Positions 5,227 through 21,576 of a DNA stretch of 28,487 nt are shown here, one piece after another; the stretch's first letter is position 1, and every line of letters starts with the position of its first letter. Both the position numbers and the translations under genes were made by a program. Origin of the DNA: a virus; the IMG/VR virus record IMGVR_UViG_3300003894_000003, positions 1-28,487 of that record; one strand, given 5' to 3'. Below the pieces are notes generated by a model that had not been told where the DNA came from, did no database searches, and saw only the letters and a program-made list of their open reading frames with translations.

Positions 5227-6360
5227 ATGGCTGAAACTGATACCGGTGTAGCCCAGGGTGGTCTTGATAAAGTCATTGGCGATGCAATCATCGCGTTCAA
5301 TGAAGTAAATGTCATGTATCCTCTGGTCTCCGCCAAACAATGCCCTCCCGGTGCAATCACAGTCCAGTGGCCGGAATATACCGCCGTCGCTTCCTCCTCA
5401 GTAGGTGCAGCTACGGATGGTGCGGATTACACCTCTGTGACATCTGTGACAACCACAGCAAGGTCAGCAACCGTATCTGAACACGTTATTCGTGCAGACG
5501 TTACGGACTTGGCAGTAATGGGAAACGCCGATGACATCTCTGGTAATACAGGGGCGATCCTCGGAAATGCCGTCGCTACGGTACAAGTGGCGTTTGCGTA
5601 AGCGATTATGCAGATTATTATCGAAGTATTAAGCGGGAAACCTAAATGCGAAAGCACAAGGCAATCCGAACCGAAGGCTGTTCAAAGAGCAGTCAGGGGC
5701 AGAGCATAGGCGATGAAAAGATATAATTCGCCCACGAGACTTCGACAACTCAAGTTAGTTGAAAAGATATGCCGATACTCCATTGAAAAGTGGAGATCAA
5801 GGATAAAAAACCTTGTGAAACAAATGGCTAAACTCGACGCTGATCTTACAGCACTTGGAACTGGATTCTCACAAACAGAGTGCGGTGCAGGTACAGCTCT
5901 TACACTTGATCACATCTTTGGTGGTTTAAGACAGTTAAGAGCAGCAAATGCCCCCGCCCCTTACAACCTACTAATGAGCGATAAGGGTATATGGGGTAGC
6001 AAAGGTCTGCAAGGTTTACTTGTGGATGTAGCTGTTACAGGATCGAACGCTAAACCGGGTTCACTGTTAGGTGAGCAGGGACAGGAAATGCTGTCTCGCG
6101 GATTTGTGACCTCCATCGGTGGAATCGACGTGTATTTCTCAAATGAGATTAATGACGACGTTGGTTCCGGTGGGGACTCCGCAAGTTTCATGTTCTCTAA
6201 AGGAGCGATGGGACTCGCAGTTGGACCGGAAGGTCTATTCAGAATCGAAACGGAACGTAATGCTTCATTCAGAAGCACAGAATACGTTGCCACAGGATTC
6301 TGGGGTGAAGTGGAAACTAAAGACGCTTTCGGCGTCTATATCCTTCACGACGTCAGTTAA
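5227..6360 (+). CDS. Major capsid protein, gene split by a group I intron
   Basis: Two open frames encode the two halves of one HK97-fold-like capsid protein. Exon 1 (5227-5593) gives residues 1-122; exon 2 (5816-6360) gives the rest, with the junction reading QVA-L-KQMAKLDADL. Removing bases 5594-5815 restores one frame of 304 codons, or 303 residues, the usual size for this capsid class. Unspliced, exon 1 runs into a stop at 5599-5601, and the downstream frame has no plausible start until the ATG at 5824. The join reconstructs a continuous helix (DISGNTGAILGNAVATVQVA then KQMAKLDADLTAL), as seen in capsid proteins of this type. Without splicing the phage would lack an intact major capsid protein. 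Confidence 0.85.
5594..5815 (+). ncRNA. ORF-less group I self-splicing intron in the capsid gene
   Basis: The 222-nt insert folds by eye into a group I core. P1 pairs 5591-5595 with 5600-5604 and places the conserved U-G wobble (U5593, G5602) at the 5' splice site. P3 is 5618-5623 with 5711-5716. P4 is 5634-5637 with 5665-5668. P5 is 5641-5643 with 5659-5661, capped by a GAAA tetraloop hairpin at 5647-5656. P6a is 5676-5683 with 5687-5694. P7 is 5704-5708 with 5768-5772. P8 is 5746-5750 with 5757-5761, and P9 is 5778-5782 with 5791-5795. The intron ends in G5815. No homing endonuclease is encoded within it. P10 is not clear. Subgroup not assigned. Confidence 0.85.
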
Positions 6361-18727: not shown

Positions 18728-18742
18728 TGTCCTAATTTTGTC
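18728..18742. repeat. attP arm-type repeat, right copy
   Basis: TGTCCTAATTTTGTC overlaps the last codons of the integrase gene and matches the copy at 18529-18543 except for one base. A shorter third copy of the ten-base half (TGTCCTAATT) starts at 18739, so this side carries two close repeats. Together with the left copy they flank the tRNA core like integrase arm sites. Confidence 0.55.
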
Positions 18743-19682
18743 CTAATTGTTCAATGTTATTTTTGACCATTTCTAACTGTTTAGTCGTATAATGAGCCGT
18801 CATTTTCTCCGATGTATGGCCAACCGCAACCTTAATATCTTGAGTCCCCAGACCAATATCATGCAAATGTGAGATGAATGAAGCCCGCAAATTCTTAATT
18901 GATCCATGAATATGATATTTTTTCAATTCTCTTTTTAAAAGTTTAGATGACCAATTTCTGCTGTTTTTGTTATCCATGATATTAATTATATTAAAATCAA
19001 GCTTGGAGTGCAGCGGAATCTGAACCGGGACATCTGACTTATCCCTTTCTAATTGAATCACACCATTTTTAACAGCGTTTTTTGAAAGCGTCCCCGCATC
19101 ACCAGAGTCCAGTCCGGTATAATAGCATAACATCCAAAATCTCCGGTGTTTTAATTCTATTTTTTCATTGGAAAATATCTCAAATAATATGTCTTTTGGA
19201 ATCGCCCGAAAACGGCGTCTTTCCTTCGCTATCGGTAGCTGGGCTGACTTCATAGGATTGCGGTCGATATACCCGCAAGAAACGGCAAATTGAAGCATCT
19301 GACGGATCGGTTTAAGATAGTTTAATACAGTATTCGGAGCATGGCCACTTTTTAAGCCACCAATATATTGATTTAGGTCGCGGGATTGAATTGATGAAAC
19401 TGGCCTGTCCTGGTATTTATTTACAAATTTTTGAATCTTTGGAAGATTGTTTTGAAACCAAGAATCGGATTTATCATCTTTGATGAACTGCATCCACTCG
19501 ATTGACAATTCATGGATGGTTCGGATCGCGGGTGAATATATACCGAAGGCTTCTAATTCATATTTTTCATCAAGTTTTGTTTTAATCTGTTTGGCGATTG
19601 CCAGATTTTCTGTTTTTAAACTAAAAAATATATATCCACGACGATAATACCATTTTTTATCTCTTTTATATAATACACTCAC
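18732..19682 (-). CDS. int: Tyrosine site-specific integrase (atypical catalytic site)
   Basis: The 316-residue protein should insert and, with a helper, excise the phage at tRNA-Asp. It has an N-terminal arm-binding-like part, a core-binding SAM-like domain (about 55-140) and a catalytic domain (about 155-316). Recognisable residues are K215 (RDKSDVPVQIPL), R266 (KNLRASF), H289 (VAVGHTSEKM) and nucleophile Y298 (AHYTTKQ). The usual Arg-I in TGLRxGE is replaced: here the segment is TGLDSGDAGTL with D192. The usual HxLR histidine is K263. The gene converges on the late operon and ends next to attP. The family is certain, activity less so because of the missing Arg-I. Confidence 0.88.
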   Translation of the reverse strand: MSVLYKRDKKWYYRRGYIFFSLKTENLAIAKQIKTKLDEKYELEAFGIYSPAIRTIHELSIEWMQFIKDDKSDSWFQNNLPKIQKFVNKYQDRPVSSIQSRDLNQYIGGLKSGHAPNTVLNYLKPIRQMLQFAVSCGYIDRNPMKSAQLPIAKERRRFRAIPKDILFEIFSNEKIELKHRRFWMLCYYTGLDSGDAGTLSKNAVKNGVIQLERDKSDVPVQIPLHSKLDFNIINIMDNKNSRNWSSKLLKRELKKYHIHGSIKNLRASFISHLHDIGLGTQDIKVAVGHTSEKMTAHYTTKQLEMVKNNIEQLGQN

Positions 19683-19703: not shown

Positions 19704-20462
19704 TCACGTGCAGTCGGGACAATCTTTTTCAATACACTCTATTAAAGCAAGATTGTACTGATTATCTACACTCCCGAATGATTTAGACCTACATCGCACT
19801 TCGCAATATTTCCCATTTTTCTTCAGGACTCTGCATTTACTTTCACTGTCAGAGTTTTTCATAATTGCACATCCATCCGCATCGTCGGGATGAATGAAGT
19901 TTGTCAATAATTTGCCCATCATATCTAATTTTTCATAACCGAATTGTCGCAGAAATTCATTATTGACACTTCTTATGATATTATTGCCTCTCAGTACAGC
20001 AAGCGGGTGGTGCATATTATCAAACACATAGTCCCATTGTCGGGATTTGATATTAAGATTCTCAGCAATCTCTTTAAAGGTTGAACTCGCATCCAATTCC
20101 CGTGCGAAGGATTCAACGCTTCCCTGCGATGATTCGTATGCCCTGACCTGATTCGTGAGTTCTATGTTTAATGCTTTGAGCGATTCAATTTCGTCGAGGA
20201 GATATTTTTGAAGTCTATTGTCCATCGGCGCGTCACCTTTCTTTTCTATTCCTGTATCAAGTTTGATTTCCTCGTTGTTTAACCATTTAATTTTTTGCTT
20301 CTCTAATTCCGCCAGTTTATTCACGTGATGTTTCTGGGGGCGATTCTCCCCAGATTTCCATTTATAGACTGCACCGATAGAAACTCCAAGCTTATCGGCA
20401 ATAGTCTTGACCGAAAAATTCGTTTTTCGCAACAAATCTTGAAAATAATCATTGTAAATCAT
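19704..20462 (-). CDS. Lysogeny regulator: HTH plus PAS-domain repressor
   Basis: This 252-residue protein is the likely repressor. An N-terminal HTH_3/Cro-type motif covers roughly residues 5-45 (FSVKTIADKLGVSIGAVYKW). A coiled coil follows at about 80-110 (LLDEIESLKALNIELTNQV). A PAS domain covers about 143-245 (WDYVFDNMHHPLAVLRGNNI, FLRQFGYEKLDMMGKLLTNF, FIHPDDADG, VLKKNGKYCEVRC). There is no LexA/CI-type Ser-Lys peptidase. Seven cysteines lie in the PAS part and the C-terminus ends CPDC-T. I chose the ATG at 20462 over one at 20489 because a TATAAT at 20491-20496 puts the transcription start inside the longer N-terminus. It is divergent from the early operon. Confidence 0.75.
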   Translation of the reverse strand: MIYNDYFQDLLRKTNFSVKTIADKLGVSIGAVYKWKSGENRPQKHHVNKLAELEKQKIKWLNNEEIKLDTGIEKKGDAPMDNRLQKYLLDEIESLKALNIELTNQVRAYESSQGSVESFARELDASSTFKEIAENLNIKSRQWDYVFDNMHHPLAVLRGNNIIRSVNNEFLRQFGYEKLDMMGKLLTNFIHPDDADGCAIMKNSDSESKCRVLKKNGKYCEVRCRSKSFGSVDNQYNLALIECIEKDCPDCT

Positions 20463-20489
20463 GGTGTAATATAAGGCAAAATATTTCAT

Positions 20490-20843: not shown

Positions 20844-21023
20844 ATGAGCAGAACATCTGAAGGACTCGAACCGCACCTTTATTTTCCTGTTTTCGGTGTG
20901 AATCGAGAAATACCACCGGACGAACCCGAAATGGAATGTCCACACAAAACTGTCATAATGACCAATCTAAACGATGAATCAATCTTGGTATGTGAAGATT
21001 GCGGCGAGGAGGTGGAGATATAA
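20844..21023 (+). CDS. Small zinc-finger-like early protein
   Basis: The 59-residue product ends in a C2-type zinc knuckle: ECPHKTVIM near the middle and VCEDCGEEVEI at the end. The ATG at 20844 has a ribosome site (GAGG) eight bases upstream and is favoured over earlier frames that would run through a GC-rich hairpin. No family name can be given. Small zinc proteins of this kind are common in early phage operons and often take over host transcription or replication, but this is only inference. Confidence 0.65.
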   Translation: MSRTSEGLEPHLYFPVFGVNREIPPDEPEMECPHKTVIMTNLNDESILVCEDCGEEVEI

Positions 21024-21024
21024 G

Positions 21025-21576
21025 ATGAGTAAAATGGGAGATTACTATCAAGAACAATCAGAATTAAATGATTGGGACAAGGTGGATAGATTTTATTTGG
21101 AAAAAGAAGATAAAATAAAACTAAAAATAGAATTAGTACCAAAAACAGCATGGTATAAGAATGTAAGAAGTGCAGTAAAAAAAGAAACATGGGATATAAT
21201 TCGCAAGGATTGCTATAAGCGTGCCAATTATAAATGCGAAATATGTAACGGGGTTGGAGAAAATCATCCGGTAGAGTGTCATGAAATTTGGAATTATAAT
21301 GATTCGCAAAAAATACAAAAATTAATAGGGCTTATTGCTTTATGCCCTAATTGCCATAAAACTAAACATCCCGGACTTGCCAATATAAAAGGTGAGTTAA
21401 ATATAGTTATAAATCAACTTATGAGGGTTAATGGTATGAGTAAAATTGAAGCAAGGAAGTATATTAAAGATGCTTTTGATATATGGAAAGATAGAAGCCG
21501 GTATTTTTGGAAGTGTGATATTACTTATTTAGAAAATTATAAACGATCAAAGGCGACAGATGAAGATGTTTTTTAG
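21025..21576 (+). CDS. HNH endonuclease-family protein
   Basis: This 183-residue protein carries an HNH-type nuclease motif: CEICNG at about 72-77, VECHEIWNYND (H residues) at about 85-95, LIALCPNCHKTKHPG at about 105-119. The flanking C-x2-C pairs bind a structural metal while the histidines and asparagine form the active site. The N-terminus is charged and the C-terminus helical. Starting at the ATG at 21025 avoids 17 residues that overlap the preceding gene. It may act as a homing or DNA-processing enzyme and could in principle mobilise the intron in the capsid gene, but no evidence links them. Confidence 0.75.
   Translation: MSKMGDYYQEQSELNDWDKVDRFYLEKEDKIKLKIELVPKTAWYKNVRSAVKKETWDIIRKDCYKRANYKCEICNGVGENHPVECHEIWNYNDSQKIQKLIGLIALCPNCHKTKHPGLANIKGELNIVINQLMRVNGMSKIEARKYIKDAFDIWKDRSRYFWKCDITYLENYKRSKATDEDVF

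Follow-up and report, generated by a model that had tools for sequence, protein, structure and literature searches.

We found that the major capsid gene in a virus record from IMG/VR (IMGVR_UViG_3300003894_000003; the 28,487-nucleotide stretch analyzed here is called the window) is interrupted at positions 5578–5826 by what appears to be a self-splicing group I intron of the IA type. Removal of this insert is predicted to restore a capsid protein of 294 residues, and the insert seems to belong to a lineage of introns that lack an open reading frame (ORF) and change their insertion sites – a reading to which, judging from sequence, we assign a probability of about 0.94. A preliminary description of this DNA had already proposed that a minimal, ORF-less group I intron splits the capsid frame, and covariation over 52 relatives bears this out. 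The borders, the P1 helix, and the protein product proposed at that time need correction.

The corrected borders come from intronless alleles. A search of IMG/VR with the capsid protein yielded 44 loci with capsid relatives (4 of them intron-bearing), and we aligned 10 intronless relatives, 64–95% identical, with both halves of the capsid protein. The intronless relatives read ...GNAVA followed directly by AKLDAD... (or equivalent) in a protein of ~294 amino acids, and in the DNA of the closest ones GGAAATGCCGTTGCC is followed immediately by GCTAAACT. Protein and DNA alignment with these relatives place the join at U5577^G5827 and the insert at 5578–5826 (249 nt). The insert is preceded by U, its last base is G5826, and the join with intronless alleles is exact and without overlap ambiguity: because the bases at its two edges differ, the insert cannot be shifted either way. 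A search of IMG/VR for the exact ligated junction sequence returned no record; intronless alleles come no closer than 95% identity.

The preliminary description had instead placed the intron at 5594–5815 (222 nt), giving a 303-residue product, and had suggested comparing intronless relatives for a join at 5593/5816; that comparison finds the join at 5577/5827. An open frame and a stable hairpin near the 5' end speak for the earlier borders, but these would retain nine residues (TVQVALKQM) that are absent from all 10 aligned intronless relatives. Moreover, in the hairpin used, the partner of the exon-end base U5593 is A rather than G, and the P1 identified by covariation lies upstream. We therefore give the 222-nt intron almost no credence. 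The two joins also differ in their predicted tryptic peptides – ADVTDLAVMGNADDISGNTGAILGNAVAAK spans the U5577^G5827 join, while the 5593/5816 join would give ...GNAVATVQVALK.

Table 1. Parts of the interrupted capsid gene and of its predicted intron, in window positions.
Feature	Position	Strand	Details and evidence
Major capsid gene exon 1	5227–5577	+	117 codons, ends ...GNAVA, last base U5577; alignment with intronless relatives
Group I (IA-like) intron, predicted	5578–5826	+	249 nt, without ORF, last base G5826; exact insert relative to relatives, structure counts
Major capsid gene exon 2	5827–6360	+	AKLDAD...HDVS, stop; alignment with relatives, spliced protein matches phrog_544
P1	5574–5592	+	CGCU 5574–5577 with internal guide (IGS) GGCG 5589–5592; U5577·G5589 wobble at 5' splice site; exon/IGS complementarity in 64 of 65 related introns
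P2 hairpin	5593–5615	+	Fold and position relative to mapped 5' splice site; in-frame stop 5599–5601 inside
P3 5' strand	5621–5627	+	Pairs with 5739–5745; 7 bp, compensatory changes at 6 of 7
P4-P5-P5a (GAAA loop)-P6-P6a domain	5634–5698	+	P6 pair 5672–5696 occurs as C-G, U-A, and A-U
P7 5' strand	5702–5708	+	Bulged A5703; pairs with 5768–5773; G5704–C5772 is the guanosine-binding pair; paired in 100% of cells; compensated at 5706–5770 (A-U to G-C)
P7.1 hairpin	5709–5732	+	100% paired, 4 of 5 pairs compensated
P3 3' strand and P8 hairpin	5739–5761	+	P3 5739–5745; P8 5746–5761; structure counts
P7 3' strand	5768–5773	+	J8/7 AAAAGA (5762–5767) just before
P9 and P9.1	5778–5815	+	P9 with GAAA loop 5778–5795; P9.1 5798–5815; 10 of 12 pairs compensated

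Even as a single sequence the insert folds better than chance (z = −3.65), and it contains a complete group I core with P3, P4, P5 carrying a GAAA loop, P6/P6a, P7, P7.1, P8, and P9 (Table 1). All of the core helices named in the preliminary description (P3, P4, P5 with GAAA loop, P6a, P7, P8, and P9) are present and supported by covariation; the helix that it called P1 (5592–5615) is actually P2, and the true P1 has the U5577·G5589 pair. Reading from the sequence, a P10 of 3 bp is possible between A5586–U5588 and G5827–U5829. P7.1 is typical of IA introns, and its position between the 5' strand of P7 and the 3' strand of P3 points to an IA-type intron. Longer family members have room for a second hairpin beyond P7.1 (the IA feature P7.2), and we classify the predicted window core as IA-like. 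The 249-nt insert has no ORF of its own and hence no intron-encoded homing endonuclease.

Covariation provides the main test of this structure. We scanned IMG/VR with two DNA patterns taken from the core, which collected at least 119 and 87 partly overlapping stretches, and aligned 52 non-redundant cores that were scored against a hand-made structure including the pseudoknot. Standard pairs occupy 97.9% of 2809 cells, and both sides of the pair change at 35 of 55 pairs. Cells with double changes number 584, as compared to 152 in shuffles and 38–67 when the partners are slid. Compensation is seen at six of the seven P3 pairs, at A5706–U5770 in P7, and at 5672–5696 in P6. The collecting pattern left P3, P5a, P6a, P7.1, P8, P9, and P9.1 free but fixed part of P7, so the invariance of G5704–C5772 and A5703 in the 52 introns is partly a product of selection by the pattern.

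Consistent with the corrected P1, the related introns carry guides that match their own sites. Just inside the 5' end, 65 of the 69 mapped introns have a G-N-C-G guide, and in 64 of these 65 the N is complementary to the second-last exon base (exon/guide GGU/GCC in 39, GCU/GGC in 16, GAU/GUC in 5, and GUU/GAC in 4). When distinct combinations of site, exon, and guide are counted, 26 of 27 are complementary versus 11.0 in shuffles, and 0 of 10,000 shuffles are as high. The 5' sites were picked by protein alignment with a U required, and complementarity played no part; because of this, the guide match tests both P1 and the corrected border independently.

The preliminary description had looked to Rfam for a decision, holding that the group I model should score above threshold. 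It does not: Intron_gpI (RF00028) has no match at the gathering threshold in the window or in 17 family loci, and searching 601 bases against Rfam at E ≤ 10 returned nothing relevant. A weak SAM_alpha match in the Rfam search (12 bits, E 5) is a chance hit. Yet in a control stretch of phage T4 searched with the same library, the nrdB intron reached 35.7 bits (cut-off 50; L293:2509–2749) and the td intron was absent at E ≤ 0.1. Because the same model fails on both T4 introns, its silence does not refute a group I intron here. The gathering threshold of RF00028 is a database threshold rather than a biological criterion, and a 2025 study of phage introns called the Rfam model incomplete (PMC11878797).

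We propose that the intron would leave the late capsid mRNA by two guanosine-started transesterifications, with U5577 joined to G5827. An in-frame stop (TAA, 5599–5601) located 22 nt into the intron would halt ribosomes before they reach the catalytic core and should allow folding; such in-frame stops have been viewed as shielding the fold from ribosomes (PMC3984707). Of 57 mapped introns, 54 place a stop in the reading frame that enters from upstream, and only 25 have a length divisible by three, so read-through cannot stand in for splicing.

A different possibility is that the insert is a sign of a dead gene or of faulty assembly, in which case the capsid would be produced as two proteins or would not be produced. 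An ATG-started ORF (5713–6360) does run from the insert into exon 2, and a related contig (L043) jumps between introns and may be an assembly collapse. However, independent contigs have the same type of insert at exactly the same site, and its structure is under selection. Furthermore, the spliced 294-residue product matches the PHROG major head protein phrog_544 (E = 5.6e-5), whereas neither unspliced half alone has a match in PHROGs or Pfam. We consider a dead or misassembled gene extremely improbable.

To place the intron among its relatives, we built a covariance model (R1) from the 52 cores and ran it over the fetched loci. The model scores the window intron at 240 bits (by construction) and identifies it as the only R1 intron in the window. 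Among the matches listed, the exons of 72 of 149 non-redundant introns cluster together as major capsid genes of two families – MCP-A, which includes the window gene, and MCP-B, which matches phrog_267. The remaining introns were mostly lower-scoring matches to the looser of the two patterns; their host genes include topoisomerase II, dUTPase-like, major tail, and tape-measure-like genes (dUTPase and tape-measure being putative labels from sequence). The capsid gene is the main host of this intron lineage and houses most of the window intron's close relatives, although capsid introns had served as seeds for the search patterns, so its share may be overstated.

Comparison with intronless capsid proteins gave exact sites, with 24 site labels over 69 introns among the matches listed. 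MCP-A accounts for 5 of these labels (one of them known from a lone contig that may be chimeric) and MCP-B for 19. Introns occur in 4 of 44 MCP-A loci and 14 of 80 MCP-B loci, and the 57 mapped capsid introns are 229–266 nt long and ORF-less. Several capsid genes have multiple copies. L043, L098, and L180 contain three cores each, and L114 and L200 contain four core matches each; the fourth in L114 and two of those in L200 lack a clean join and were excluded from the mapped sites. Also excluded were divergent, 45-bit intron-like matches ~100 nt from the first intron of the same capsid gene (L051:2350–2567, L055:3256–3473, and L063:1383–1600). Close family introns were additionally observed in a gene of a putative third, different major capsid family (L202:5511–5719) and in a small gene that looks DNA-binding and may encode a terminase small subunit (L162:784–984).

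Neither the family core pattern nor the capsid protein had a match in a collection of 84,980 bacterial and archaeal genomes, and the relatives of the capsid protein among named phages are all distant, at ~30% identity (Pelagibacter phages and Phage DSL-LC06). The window also encodes an integrase and a PAS/helix-turn-helix regulator on the minus strand (18732–19682 and 19704–20489), which suggests a temperate lifestyle; the same genome collection yielded no related prophage.

The distribution of the introns also bears on whether they could be retained as regulators, with slow or conditional splicing timing or limiting capsid synthesis. Their concentration in late capsid genes, the presence of several introns per gene, and the strong conservation of their structure would all fit such a role. 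However, the introns are dispensable, since 40 of 44 MCP-A and 66 of 80 MCP-B loci do without one, their sites vary widely between phages, and no aptamer-like addition was seen. A regulatory role therefore strikes us as decidedly unlikely.

We next examined how the introns spread. On a tree of 69 cores, the distribution of site labels requires 31 changes, against a minimum of 23 and 54.4 in shuffles, and that of capsid families requires 6. These counts indicate that introns mostly stay at their site but that moves between sites and between families are required. The L043 capsid gene carries an intron at the same site as the window intron (site A), with a differing core, along with further introns. 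The first 34 nt and the last 56 nt of the window intron are identical to this site-A intron, while its core is identical at 141 of 150 positions to another L043 intron. This mosaic implies that recombination swaps cores while the site-matched ends stay. In the L043 contig, which is shared with L204, a 5' exon ends ...TSIGG, the 3' exon starts VYILHDVS, and ~70 capsid codons are missing between them (L043:2291–2536). The assembly may have collapsed two near-identical introns, or recombination between introns may truly have deleted this segment.

The picture is one of a lineage of ORF-less marine phage introns that reside mainly in major capsid genes, at many sites, where the guide of each copy fits the exon end at its own site (nearly always G-N-U). 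According to the tree, sites are for the most part inherited or retained through allelic conversion, with an occasional move to a new one, and, as the window copy shows, recombination between introns swaps cores. The broader proposition that this group IA lineage is specialized on major capsid genes – with at least 20 sites, two families, and multiple copies in a gene – and relocates by adapting its three-base guide (G-N'-C) to new G-N-U exon ends, aided by inter-intron recombination and without an endonuclease of its own, seems to us somewhat better than an even bet.

How new sites are reached is a separate question. Reverse splicing theoretically needs only 4–6 complementary bases, and it has been proposed for ectopic moves but is unproven for them (PMC3984707). 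Our first guess, at about even odds, is that new sites were reached by reverse splicing rather than with an endonuclease acting in trans. Homing in trans with a free-standing endonuclease – an explanation that concerns spread, not splicing – has a phage precedent in the collaborative homing of ORF-less introns (PMC3984707), and Exiguobacterium phage vB_EauM-23 has, downstream of its terminase gene, a related intron that contains an HNH ORF. The window itself encodes a free-standing HNH endonuclease (20974–21576; phrog_5200, 3e-61), which the preliminary description had speculated might act in trans. We found no support for this: 15 kb separate the gene from the intron, it is related to ordinary HNH genes of phages, and it has no homologue in the other intron-bearing loci fetched, most of which cover only part of a genome. 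One enzyme, moreover, could hardly cut 24 different sites, and we regard trans homing as unlikely.

Individual features of this lineage have precedents. Capsid introns are known from mycobacteriophage LittleE (PMC3706429) and, as cited in the same paper, from lactococcal phage Tuc2009. The earlier view of capsid genes as unusual hosts is thus only partly fair, given these cases and the status of capsid genes as the main host in this lineage. The LittleE insert resembles the window intron in being a probable group I intron in a major capsid gene, with an exon that ends in U and an intron that ends in G, but it is 819 bp long with an endonuclease ORF and occurs in other phages, and no lineage of capsid sites was described (PMC3706429). 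The introns of BAKA/Optimus share the terminal U and G and are ORF-less like the window intron (265 bp in BAKA), but they lie in a tail gene (PMC3706429). Splicing was shown by RT-PCR for LittleE and BAKA/Optimus (PMC3706429).

Over half of viral group I introns are IA2 (PMC11835236). Several similar introns in one gene are found in orf142 of Staphylococcus phage Twort, which has three of the IA2 type; this is a different gene in one phage, and exon skipping was shown there (work cited in PMC10136302). Jug phages likewise have many small group I introns (~206 nt on average), with metatranscriptome support for splicing in 37 of 76 tested, but in these huge gut phages the introns are distributed over many genes (terL, nrdD) and were detected with subtype-specific models, and the available text of that study reports no capsid preference for the small introns (PMC12363816). 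The T4 td and nrdB introns are annotated as group IA and, like the window intron, are located in phage protein genes and poorly seen by Rfam; they differ in having homing endonuclease genes and in interrupting replication/nucleotide genes. Model R1 has no match to td or nrdB, which places the lineage on a separate branch from those introns. The nearest named match is the insert in Exiguobacterium phage vB_EauM-23 (MH844558; L292:2965–3846), an unannotated family relative that scores 84 bits with R1, with a further 21 bits for a 3' half. It differs in that an annotated HNH endonuclease gene splits the two halves and in its location right after terL. Capsid introns, ORF-less introns, and multi-intron genes all being precedented, what is unusual here is the gene preference.

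These results have practical and biological consequences. Anyone working on this phage should take the 294-residue join, and neither ORF alone, as the correct capsid sequence. Standard annotation hides such introns – Rfam was blind to every family locus tested, so marine phage capsid genes look like broken halves – and many phage introns will escape annotation with RF00028. An apparently capsid-preferring, ORF-less lineage of marine phage introns with site-matched guides, albeit one recovered by a search seeded with capsid introns, is an added finding that is worth following. It offers a natural experiment, in which dozens of similar ribozymes lie at different sites of one gene class with site-matched guides and with intronless alleles at hand. 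The lineage thereby makes testable how ORF-less group I introns reach new sites, be it by reverse splicing, trans homing, or recombination.
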